Source of the DNA: Fibrobacter sp.
GTDB taxonomy: Bacteria > Fibrobacterota > Fibrobacteria > Fibrobacterales > Fibrobacteraceae
Direction of reading: 5' to 3'
DNA: 64,000 bases
Assembly: GCA_017412605.1 (NCBI GenBank)
Contig: JAFPWY010000012.1
Location: forward strand, 186,001-250,000
The translations under genes were made by a program, and so were the position numbers. The notes beneath the pieces are model-generated. The model was given only the letters and a program-made list of their open reading frames with translations. It had not been told where the DNA came from and did no database searches. Shown piece by piece: positions 27,125-30,806 of this stretch (its first letter is position 1; each line of letters opens with the position of its first letter).

Positions 27125-27934
27125 TTATTTCAGTAACTTGTTCTCTCCGATGGATTCTAGCACTGTCATCTGCGAAATCGCAATCTGGTTCAGCTTTTGC
27201 AATCGTTCTGGCTGCGGCAAGCCTTCCTTGATCAGGACGGAATTCAGCGATTCCATATTCGAAAGGCATATAAGCTGATTTACCGTCGCATAGTCGCGGA
27301 CATTGCCCTGCAAATCGGTATGTGCATCGCGCCATTCCTTAGCAGTAAATCCGAATAATGCAACATTTAGAACATCAGCTTCGTTTGCGTAAACCATGCT
27401 CATCTGTTGTTTTGTAAGTGTAGCCGGAATCAAATTCTGCTTGATGGCGTCCGTATGGATATGGTAGTTGATTTTTGAGAGTTCACGACGTAATGACCAT
27501 CCTAATTGGGCCTGTTCCGCAGCCTTGAGGCGTTGGAACTCCTTAACTAAGTACAATTCGAATTCGACAGAAACCCAACTTGCAAATTTGACGGCGATAT
27601 CATATTGTGCAAAAGTCCCGCCGTTTACACCATTTTTAGAAATGAGTCCAATTGCACCTGTTTCTTCAATCCATCGAGAAGGGCTCATGGTGAACGAATG
27701 GCTACCAGCTTCTTTTAAAAAGGGGTCGAATTCGACCCCTTTGAAGTCGGGATTGTTCAACATTTCCCATAAACCTAAATATTCTATTGTATTTTTTGAC
27801 CTCATCCAATTTTTCACAACATCCTTAGGCTCCACCGGATTCTTTTGCCGAGCAATATCAGTAATGCAGACATAATCGACGCCGTTAACGAGCATTGTTT
27901 TGATTTCTCGGTTCATGACGTTTATTCGTTTCAT
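27125..27934 (-). CDS. KilA-N domain protein
   Basis: This 269-residue protein has the KilA-N DNA-binding fold typical of phages and mobile elements, spread over about residues 10-130: 'DYVCITDIARQKNPVEPKDVVKNWMRSKNTIEYLGLWEML', 'WIEETGAIGLISKNGVNGGTFAQYDIAVKFASWVSVEFELYLVKEFQRL'. The C-terminal half ('YANEADVLNVALFGFTAKEWRDAH', 'NQLICLSNMESLNSVLI') follows the layout of chromosomal KilA-N proteins in Bacteroidota and Fibrobacterota. Its biological role is not known. Base composition is lower in GC than in smc or eamA, consistent with transfer. Direct repeats that could be its operator lie at 27973-28011. Confidence 0.87.
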   Translation of the reverse strand: MKRINVMNREIKTMLVNGVDYVCITDIARQKNPVEPKDVVKNWMRSKNTIEYLGLWEMLNNPDFKGVEFDPFLKEAGSHSFTMSPSRWIEETGAIGLISKNGVNGGTFAQYDIAVKFASWVSVEFELYLVKEFQRLKAAEQAQLGWSLRRELSKINYHIHTDAIKQNLIPATLTKQQMSMVYANEADVLNVALFGFTAKEWRDAHTDLQGNVRDYATVNQLICLSNMESLNSVLIKEGLPQPERLQKLNQIAISQMTVLESIGENKLLK

Positions 27935-28090: not shown

Positions 28091-28178
28091 GGGGAGGGAG
28101 AAGTCTCCCCTAGGTCGCGCGACGCTTGCGTTGTTGCTTCCCACCTTCTCGCCTAGGGGCTCTGCCCCTAAAACCCCT
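28091..28178. repeat. GC-rich palindromic repeat, left flank of the methyltransferase gene
   Basis: Contains a GGGGAG/CTCCCC hairpin (about 28091-28110) and, at 28144-28178, 'ctcgcctaggggctctgcccctaaaacccct'-like sequence. The latter is an inverted copy of 30695-30732 on the other side of the gene. An in-frame start at 28131 would translate this repeat and is not credible. Confidence 0.7.
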
Positions 28179-28229
28179 ATTGCAAAGGATAAAGCATCCG
28201 ATTTCGCTAAAAATTCTTATATTCAAGGC

Positions 28230-30686
28230 ATGAATTATTCAAAGCTCCGCGAAGAACAGTTGAAATCCGCCGTGCGCGAGGATTTCTTTGCCGATTACAA
28301 ATATACGCAACTAGGAAACATTGACTTCGTAATTGCAAAACACAATACGACTGGCGAACGAACGGAACTTTTTGAAGACGAAATCGCCGACCTCAAGAGC
28401 ATCTTATGGGCAGAGGCGAAACAGGGTAACACCCACGACATATACGAATCTTTTGTGCAATTGATGCTCACCATTGGTAAGGAGCGTTCCTTTGAGCATA
28501 ACCTGCCACCCAAGTACATCGGAGCCTTTGATGCCGAAAAATTTGCGTTTATCGAGTATCACGATATTCAGGAAATTTTCTACCAGAATGATTTTAATTG
28601 GAATGTAACCCCGAGCAATCACGATACCAAGGAATTTAAGCAACTTCACGATCTTTGCCAAAAGTTACTTGAAGAGAAATCGATTTTTTTCCGATTCAAG
28701 AGTGATTCTGCAGAACTAAAAAAATTCATTCGTACCAATTTCAAAATTACGAAGGACATCTCCGAAAAAATTTCAGTTACCAAGAACAATTTTACTTTCG
28801 TATTCCAGAAATGGGAAACTGCAGTAAAACCATCTATCAATGTAGATTGGACAAAGGTAAACAAGGCTGGAATCATATCGGCGGACTTCTTCTTGGCTGA
28901 TTTACTTTCTAGCGACAATCGTTCCATCAAGGACAATCTCTTTGTTGTCTTGAAAAGGACAAAATACGCGTTAGCCAAGAAACTAGACGAGAATGGATTC
29001 CTTTCGTATTCCACGGTTGAATTCAAGGATAAGCAAAAGGCGTATAAGGAATTTTGGAGTATCTATAAGAGACCCCCACAAGAGGAATATTGGGATTATA
29101 TCATTGAAAGACGTGATTTGTTGGTTCCTCAGGATATCCGCGAACGCAAGGGCAGTTTTTTCACTCCGCAGATATGGGTGGAAAAATCTCAGCAGTATTT
29201 AGCGGATGTGCTCGGAGAAACCTGGCAAGATGACTATTGTATATGGGACTGTTGCGCCGGAACGGGCAACCTGCTGAACGGGCTCACCAACTACGACAAT
29301 GTGTGGGCATCAACATTGGATAAGCAGGATCTCGATGTGATGACGGACCGTGTGAATAACGGATGGTCCATGCCCGAAAACCATATTTTTCAGTTCGATT
29401 TTCTGAATGATGAATTTGGCAAGTGCCCTGAAGAATTGCAGCAAATCATCAATGACCCCGAAAAACGTAAGAAACTGGTTATCTACATAAACCCTCCGTA
29501 TGCGGAAGCGGGAAATAAGCGTCAAATGAATTCTGATGCAAAGAACAAGAGTGGCGTTTCGTTTGAAAACAAGATTTATGAAAAATGGAGTGGTATTGTT
29601 GGAACGGCGGCAAGAGAACTTTATGCTGAATTTCTCCTGCGAATCCATGATGAACTAAATGGTTGCGTTTTAGGTCAATTCTCAAAATTAAAGGCTCTTT
29701 GTGCTCCAAATTTTGTGAAATTCCGTGAGGTATTTAGAGCGAAATTGCAAAAATGTTTTGTTGTTCCTGCAAATACTTTTGATAATGTTAAGGGCCAATT
29801 TCCAATAGGTTTCTTTGTATGGGATACAAAGGAAATGTCTAATTTACTCGAAAATAAAGAGTCTTTAAATCCAACCGTTGCTGATGTTTATGATTCAAAT
29901 GGAGTTTTTCAGGGAAAACACACATTCTACGCATATAATAACTGCAAATTTATGTTGCATTGGATTAGAAACTTCTATGATCTTGATGGAGAACTCATTG
30001 CATTTATTCGCGTAAACGGACAGGATATGCAAAACAAAAATGGTGTATTCCTGACTTGCGAATTGACTCCAAATGATTACAAAGCACATTTCTTTTTCAA
30101 AGTGACAAAAAAGAATGTGACGCAAATGTCGATTTACTTTGCCGTTCGTCATTGTATTGAAGCTTTATGGCTTAATGACCGTGATCAGTTCCTTTATCCG
30201 AATGATGGCTGGCAGGAGGATTTTGCTTTCCAAACAGATTGCCTGATTTATACTCTATTCCATGGGCAAAACAGGATTTCATCCGAAGTACTAACTACCG
30301 ACAAGCAATCACTAGCCACAAACCATTGGATTCCTTTTACTCGCGAGCAAGTTGGTTGTAAAAGTACTTTCAAGAGTAATTTCATGAACAAGTTCCTGAA
30401 AGAATTCATGGAATCGCACTCGTTGAATCTTTCTGATGAAGCTCAAACTGTATATAATGCCGGGCTAGAACTTTGGAAATATTACCACACTCAAACTGCT
30501 GCAAAACCTAACGCAAGTTTCTATGATATCCGCAAGCATTTCCAGGGTGTTGATGCCAAGGGACACATGAACAGCAGTTCAGAAGATTCCACTTACATGG
30601 ATCTAATCTCGGTTTTGCGCACCCGTCAAAAAATTCTCGCTTCAAAAATTGAACAGAGTGTCTATAAGTACGGATTCTTGAAGTAG
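28230..30686 (+). CDS. N6-adenine DNA methyltransferase, possible single-chain Type IIG restriction enzyme
   Basis: This 818-residue protein has the SAM motif 'WDCCAGTGNLLNGL' (Asp-340) and catalytic 'YINPPYAEAG' (NPPY at 421-424), marking an adenine-N6 methyltransferase. The N-terminal region contains 'LKSILWAEAKQG' (Glu-62, Lys-64) with Asp-32, Asp-50 and Asp-54 nearby, which could be the D...ExK site of a restriction nuclease as in MmeI-like enzymes. The C-terminal 250 residues would then hold target recognition. No separate endonuclease or specificity gene is present. The ATG at 28230 avoids repeat-encoded sequence. The gene is clearly AT-richer than its surroundings and lies between inverted repeats. 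Methyltransferase is confident; nuclease activity is inference. Confidence 0.82.
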   Translation: MNYSKLREEQLKSAVREDFFADYKYTQLGNIDFVIAKHNTTGERTELFEDEIADLKSILWAEAKQGNTHDIYESFVQLMLTIGKERSFEHNLPPKYIGAFDAEKFAFIEYHDIQEIFYQNDFNWNVTPSNHDTKEFKQLHDLCQKLLEEKSIFFRFKSDSAELKKFIRTNFKITKDISEKISVTKNNFTFVFQKWETAVKPSINVDWTKVNKAGIISADFFLADLLSSDNRSIKDNLFVVLKRTKYALAKKLDENGFLSYSTVEFKDKQKAYKEFWSIYKRPPQEEYWDYIIERRDLLVPQDIRERKGSFFTPQIWVEKSQQYLADVLGETWQDDYCIWDCCAGTGNLLNGLTNYDNVWASTLDKQDLDVMTDRVNNGWSMPENHIFQFDFLNDEFGKCPEELQQIINDPEKRKKLVIYINPPYAEAGNKRQMNSDAKNKSGVSFENKIYEKWSGIVGTAARELYAEFLLRIHDELNGCVLGQFSKLKALCAPNFVKFREVFRAKLQKCFVVPANTFDNVKGQFPIGFFVWDTKEMSNLLENKESLNPTVADVYDSNGVFQGKHTFYAYNNCKFMLHWIRNFYDLDGELIAFIRVNGQDMQNKNGVFLTCELTPNDYKAHFFFKVTKKNVTQMSIYFAVRHCIEALWLNDRDQFLYPNDGWQEDFAFQTDCLIYTLFHGQNRISSEVLTTDKQSLATNHWIPFTREQVGCKSTFKSNFMNKFLKEFMESHSLNLSDEAQTVYNAGLELWKYYHTQTAAKPNASFYDIRKHFQGVDAKGHMNSSSEDSTYMDLISVLRTRQKILASKIEQSVYKYGFLK

Positions 30687-30694
30687 GAACTTTC

Positions 30695-30732
30695 GGGGGG
30701 TTTAGGGGGTGGAGCCCCTTAGGCGAGGGGGT
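30695..30732. repeat. GC-rich repeat, right flank of the methyltransferase gene
   Basis: 'gggtttagggggtggagcc' followed by 'ccttaggcgag' mirrors the left-flank copy at 28144-28178 in inverted orientation with few changes. It begins eight bases behind the methyltransferase stop. Confidence 0.75.
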
Positions 30733-30743
30733 AGCGTATGCCA

Positions 30744-30806
30744 CAGGGAGATCCCCGCCTTCGCGGGGATGACATGGGGCAGAAGCGAGGGGGAGGCTTC
30801 CCCCTT
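30744..30806. repeat. REP-like palindromes upstream of the GH43 gene
   Basis: 'gatccccgccttcgcgggga' (from about 30750) is a strong palindrome, followed by GGGGGAGGCTTCCCCC (about 30791-30806). These resemble dispersed palindromic units of many genomes. They explain the open frame upstream of the GH43 start at 30906, which is not likely translated. Confidence 0.6.

Follow-up and report, generated by a model that had tools for sequence, protein, structure and literature searches.

A predicted single-chain Type IIG/IIL-like restriction-modification enzyme with a hypervariable recognition segment at a variable site of a Fibrobacter genome

An intact gene in the 64,000-nucleotide stretch of Fibrobacter sp. 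DNA analysed here (the window) very probably encodes a self-sufficient restriction-modification enzyme, made of one polypeptide and operating in the manner of the Type IIG/IIL enzymes DrdV and MmeI. A complete enzyme of this kind had been put forward as a possibility in a preliminary description of the DNA. The prediction gains strong support from the conserved D/ExK and methyltransferase motifs, the predicted fold, the domain order, a hypervariable specificity segment, purifying selection on the N-terminal domain and the lack of a partner gene. The chain would begin with a PD-(D/E)XK nuclease (residues 1 to about 125) carrying D32, E62 and K64; a mainly helical spacer (about 126-290) would connect this nuclease to a gamma-class N6-adenine methyltransferase (about 291-535). 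A target recognition domain (TRD, about 536-645), probably aided by a loop at 426-460, and a conserved C-terminal part would follow. The single recognition domain would serve both methylation and cutting. The enzyme would methylate an adenine in its site, marking a single strand, and would spare sites bearing its own mark. Unmodified incoming DNA would be cut a fixed distance away from the site, probably by two molecules paired through their N-terminal domains, and the activity would serve in defence against phage.

The open reading frame runs on the + strand from the ATG at 28230 to a stop at 30686. An upstream TTG at 28131 would give 851 residues with the same stop. The ATG is the start aligned across the family and yields the 818 residues given in the preliminary description. 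The sequences singled out there, DCCAGTGN, NPPY and the N-terminal WAEAK (residues 60-64; 28407-28421), were all located in this frame. The methyltransferase domain opens with a motif X-like GSFFTP, followed by motif I (DCCAGTGN) and motif IV (NPPY). The gene is AT-rich against a GC-rich background, as had been stated, with a GC content of 39.8% compared with 53.7% for the window. Coordinates of all features are collected in the table.

Table. Features of the gene, its surroundings and related tandem arrays. Positions are those of the window, except for the arrays, which are given by locus.
Feature	Position	Strand	Basis or remark
KilA-N gene, PADLOC candidate PDC-S22, second gene of the variable stretch	27125..27934	-	
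Interspersed composite GC-rich repeat, left copy; not gene-specific	about 28091-28180	-	
Putative single-chain Type IIG/IIL-like restriction-modification gene, 818 aa, intact	28230..30686	+	
N-terminal domain, aa 1-125, predicted PD-(D/E)XK nuclease	28230..28604	+	predicted model, fold comparison, dN/dS
D32 codon, predicted catalytic Asp, 99% conserved	28323..28325	+	family alignments
E62-A63-K64 codons (ExK); E62 and K64 100% conserved in the core family	28413..28421	+	alignments
Mostly helical spacer region, aa 126-290	28605..29099	+	model; position matches the MmeI multi-helical spacer (PMC4833311)
Predicted gamma-type adenine methyltransferase domain, aa 291-535	29100..29834	+	motifs, model, fold matches
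Motif I DCCAGTGN (SAM binding), aa 340-347	29247..29270	+	
Motif IV NPPY, aa 421-424; N6 amino group of adenine is the expected target	29490..29501	+	
Variable loop after NPPY, aa 426-460	29505..29609	+	identity comparisons among members
Hypervariable segment, aa 536-645, putative target recognition domain core	29835..30164	+	identity comparisons
Conserved C-terminal region, aa 646-818, end largely helical	30165..30683	+	alignment, model
Composite repeat, right copy; terminator-like hairpin end at 30789-30803; present in G017 without the gene	about 30695-30805	+	
Tandem arrays	L065:3095-10487; L053:2395-10430; L033:8001-13004; L063:7977-12998		similar catalytic halves, different recognition segments

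The suggestion that WAEAK could be a nuclease site is strengthened by its conservation. When 90 full-length homologues were aligned, D32 and Q77 were each conserved in 99% and E62 and K64 in 100%, while the adjoining positions 41-59 were free to vary. Motif I (D340, G344, G346, N347) and NPPY were 99-100% conserved and occurred in order. E62 and K64 remained invariant in an alignment of 85 sequences that included more distant Fibrobacter copies. An ExK motif was read by eye in all of nine proteins reaching down to 22% identity (AEAK, FEAK, FEAK, MEFK, LEFK, LEFK, LEFK, IESK and FEAK), although in this alignment the ExK of the lactobacillar and Virgibacillus proteins falls a few columns off. 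Q77 was invariant in the same set; the eight distant homologues, 22-35% identical, thus retain both ExK and the Gln at position 77. The dN/dS of the N-terminal domain against the two nearest homologues (0.09 and 0.07) indicates that this domain is under purifying selection. The values for the nuclease, spacer and methyltransferase parts of the window gene against the same relatives (0.02-0.09) indicate that all three are under such selection.

The fold of the protein was predicted with AlphaFold (mean pLDDT 86, pTM 0.64 for the whole chain). The N-terminus is modelled as helix 8-19, strands 24-28, 31-36 and 57-63, helix 71-85 and strands 96-100 and 104-109. This alpha-beta-beta-beta-alpha-beta order is that of PD-(D/E)XK nucleases; D32 falls on the second strand, and E62 and K64 lie where the third strand ends. 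Residues 1-150 folded alone gave the same topology (pLDDT 84, pTM 0.81). When the nuclease domain alone was compared with PDB folds, no significant match was obtained (best E 0.14); its top, non-significant matches were proteins of the PD-(D/E)XK superfamily: HincII, Rai1, bunyavirus cap-snatching endonucleases, Cas4-type proteins and PrfA/RecU. The preliminary description had named absence of a PD-(D/E)xK fold as evidence against its reading. The predicted topology is right for this fold and the top matches, statistically weak, belong mostly to that superfamily. For the whole model, the best PDB fold matches were DrdV (E 1e-7), CamA, M.BseCI, MmeI (E 2.6e-6), BsaXI and LlaBIII; these span E 1e-7 to 1e-5. 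Type I HsdM proteins also appear among the fold matches. Global TM-scores of these matches are low (about 0.2-0.35) and rmsd is high, so the matches support chiefly the methyltransferase core and the domain order, less a full superposition.

The best solved match, DrdV (PDB 7LO5/7LVV), is a single-chain Type IIL/IIG enzyme with the same order of nuclease, spacer, gamma-methyltransferase and TRD as the window protein. It differs in length (about 1010 residues compared with 818), is 12-13% identical over the fold alignment, and its relationship to the window protein was not detectable by PDB sequence and profile searches.

One of the best fold matches, CamA, is an orphan methyltransferase of the gamma class and raises an alternative: the protein could act in regulation or epigenetically as a solitary adenine methyltransferase, its N-terminal domain being structural or having lost the ability to cut. 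The lack of a significant fold match for the N-terminal domain would agree with this, and CamA, M.TaqI and M.BseCI share with the window protein a common methyltransferase core with NPPY and a C-terminal recognition domain. These solitary enzymes differ in size, with 394-576 residues in solved chains, and are not known to have a nuclease domain. A literature search for Fibrobacter methylome data found nothing relevant. The near invariance of D32, E62, K64 and Q77 beside freely varying residues argues against a solitary methyltransferase, as does the retention of ExK in distant homologues, since a purely structural domain is not expected to retain metal-binding residues. A hypervariable specificity region in a patchily distributed gene is also unlike a core epigenetic regulator. 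We therefore regard a solitary methyltransferase as unlikely and favour the single-chain restriction-modification enzyme.

Searches by sequence and profile gave no link between the window protein and a characterised enzyme. Pfam gave no meaningful match (none to PF07669 up to E = 1), NCBIfam nothing meaningful, PADLOC no matching model, and the PDB nothing meaningful by either sequence or profile search. There was a weak match to one DNA-methyltransferase PHROG (E 0.02). The PDB profile search also gave weak hits to Rab GTPases; these fell within the variable region and were dismissed as chance matches. None of the five MmeI Pfam models (MmeI_N, MmeI_hel, MmeI_Mtase, MmeI_TRD and MmeI_C; PF20464-PF20467 and PF20473) matched the window protein or the other members examined, while a Fibrobacter MmeI homologue used as positive control (L211) matched all five. 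In a profile comparison with Fibrobacter MmeI homologues only motif I could be aligned. The failure of Pfam, NCBIfam, PADLOC and PDB sequence models indicates that these proteins are a separate Type IIG/IIL-like sequence family. True MmeI-family genes (PF20473; L209-L221) were found in nine of 61 Fibrobacter genomes sampled and are absent from the genome of the window.

Proteins of the MmeI family (PDB 5HR4) are five-part single polypeptides with diversified specificity; MmeI is composed of an endonuclease (1-155; catalytic residues D70, E80 and K82), a multi-helical spacer (156-300), a gamma-class methyltransferase (301-620), a TRD (621-825) and a helical bundle (826-919) (PMC4833311). The window protein parallels the order and sizes of these parts. 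The Eco57I-type monomeric Type IIG enzymes (PF07669) likewise combine a gamma-methyltransferase and an N-terminal PD-(D/E)XK nuclease in one chain; the monomeric systems described have separate methyltransferases, whereas the window family has no conserved neighbour (PMC3874165 for the former). As judged by the Pfam models, membership in the MmeI and Eco57I families is excluded. The broad definition of Type IIG, a gamma-methyltransferase with an N-terminal cleavage domain (PMC3874165), fits the window protein as far as sequence and prediction go.

The surroundings of the gene were compared across 85 loci. No conserved partner or companion methyltransferase was found among them, and no neighbour family recurs in more than four. 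The protein must therefore carry both activities or neither, and with no conserved neighbour it is likely to be self-sufficient. Many neighbouring genes look like housekeeping genes. No clear excess of defence genes was seen near the gene; PADLOC hits were scattered both in nearest neighbours (131) and in genes more than 5 kb away (83). The protein could instead supply the methyltransferase of a larger defence system, as a BREX PglX or a Type I/ISP relative, with the genes for the remaining components at other places in the genome; Type ISP LlaBIII and Type I HsdM do occur among the fold matches. The Type ISP enzymes LlaBIII and LlaGI also hold nuclease, gamma-methyltransferase and TRD in one chain, but they are of about 1500 residues with an ATP-dependent motor, and a Pfam search found no helicase or translocase domain in the 818 residues of the window protein. 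Together with the lack of conserved neighbours, and with relatives on plasmids of about 10-19 kb for which no such genes are listed, this makes a part in a larger system very unlikely.

At least 195 relatives were obtained in one scan of 84,980 genomes. The best 80 of the 195, reaching down to about 46% identity, are mostly from Bacteroidota, Treponema and Fibrobacter, with some from Lentisphaerae, Kiritimatiellae and Proteobacteria MAGs. The nearest named homologues are from F. succinogenes and F. intestinalis. Two relatives lie in viral contigs, and none was found in 50,697 phage records. Further relatives are carried by plasmids of Helicobacter pylori (43%) and of Acinetobacter, Fluviibacter, Virgibacillus and lactobacilli (23-32%); wherever a gene is listed, its annotation is 'hypothetical protein'. 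Conserved presence at the same site in all relatives had been named as counting against the earlier reading. Of 61 genomes of the genus, only four, one of them the window's own, have close relatives, and nine more have relatives of 33% identity. The gene is also in five of 392 genomes drawn from the phylum to which Prevotella pectinovora belongs, counting the genome on which the sample was centred. The gene is thus sporadic in its distribution. At one locus (L005:7950-10460) a family member is split into two frames of 155 and 628 residues, a decayed or frame-shifted copy.

The gene is flanked on both sides by GC-rich repeats in inverted orientation, imperfect and with small indels. The left copy, reverse-complemented, aligns to the right copy with a gapped score of 46, against a background of 18.7 +/- 3.6 (maximum 31) for about 400 random window segments. 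The inverted copies noted in the preliminary description are therefore real, although each is a composite of about 80-120 bp, larger than described there, with a terminator-like hairpin in its outer half. The mobile-cassette role given to them is not supported. Related composite repeats, counted by a search with limits on length and mismatches, occur elsewhere in the same genome (G000) and in congeners, including G037. The flanking genes have syntenic counterparts, 89-97% identical, in the congener G017, where the gap between them holds an antitoxin-like and a lipoprotein-like frame (named by eye from sequence) in place of the KilA-N gene and the enzyme. The right-hand composite repeat is present there before the same glycoside hydrolase gene, and the enzyme gene is absent. 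The repeats are therefore interspersed intergenic elements with a terminator-like end, and not cassette ends. Composite repeats with a variable inner part are scattered in Fibrobacter genomes (L108, L109, L120, L182:3255-3350 and L190:840-900).

A precise empty site between one repeat copy, proposed earlier as a check, was not found; the single contiguous comparison, G017, has other genes in the gap. Homology to the copy in G009 spans 28209-30696, essentially the gene without the repeats, and no transposase or recombinase lies between the two repeats. Hence, even with two imperfect inverted copies bracketing the gene and a variable locus, a mobile cassette ending in these repeats is extremely unlikely in view of similar repeats elsewhere, the right copy in gene-less G017, the extent of the G009 homology and the lack of a transposase or recombinase. 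The locus is a variable site and not a cassette defined by the GC-rich repeats. The KilA-N gene that shares this site with the enzyme matches the PADLOC candidate defence family PDC-S22 (E 4e-126) and has homologues of 52-54% identity in Streptococcus satellite phages, but it is not a conserved neighbour of the enzyme in the 85 loci.

To return to the predicted single-chain enzyme, variation in its residues 426-535, and most of all in 536-645, is uncoupled from that elsewhere in the chain. Pairwise identity correlates with that of the remaining protein at 0.65-0.81 for segments up to residue 425, at 0.06 for 426-535, at 0.24 for 536-645 and at 0.54-0.63 for the C-terminal segments. Where the remaining backbones of two members agree at 80% or more, their segments up to residue 425 are on average 89-94% identical and 536-645 only 33%, near the value of 30% between any two members. 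The window protein and its G009 relative are 94% identical in backbone and 34% in the TRD; for L010 and L011 the values are 99% and 27%. The converse was also seen: in some distant pairs the TRDs resemble each other more closely than the backbones do, as in L031 and L070 (TRD 75%, backbone 64%). This decoupling is the pattern that exchange of recognition domains would give. A further candidate for exchange, L013 and L085 (backbone 58%, TRD 70%), proved an artefact: L013 ends at a contig end and its missing C-terminus had been scored as mismatch, while full DNA comparison gave a uniform 71%. At the junction of methyltransferase and TRD in the distant Fibrobacter copies L088, L089 and L091, stretches like VGCHSERNEVESKN and VIASKAKQS were noted by eye; these look like interspersed repeats that entered the variable region in frame and are translated as part of it.

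Tandem complete copies were found at four loci, two each at L033 and L063 and three each at L053 and L065, with merely 3-4 bases between copies at L065. In the L033 pair, no difference was seen in the codons compared for nuclease and spacer (dN and dS 0), while the TRDs are 25-27% identical; the blastn identity of 92% for this pair includes the diverging boundary. Such a pattern may reflect gene conversion between array copies. One Cytophagales MAG has seven copies of the gene; several Type IIG systems per genome are known, up to 20 in Borrelia (PMC3874165). More tentatively, and with some doubt, we suggest that the family may be a lineage of single-chain restriction-modification enzymes, not described before, whose design favours quick changes of specificity. 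Two or three complete enzymes would stand in an operon-like array, their nuclease and methyltransferase halves similar or nearly identical and their recognition segments unrelated, and recombination between copies and lineages would move the segments. If this is true, a cell could carry several specificities at a time and acquire others.

Pfam, NCBIfam and PADLOC models are blind to this family, so defence surveys relying on such models would miss it, and it has members in fibre-degrading gut bacteria, Fibrobacter succinogenes for example. A recognition segment that changes almost freely on a fixed catalytic frame is a possible source of new cutting specificities. The arrays would let one ask how cells keep several single-chain enzymes of differing specificity at once.
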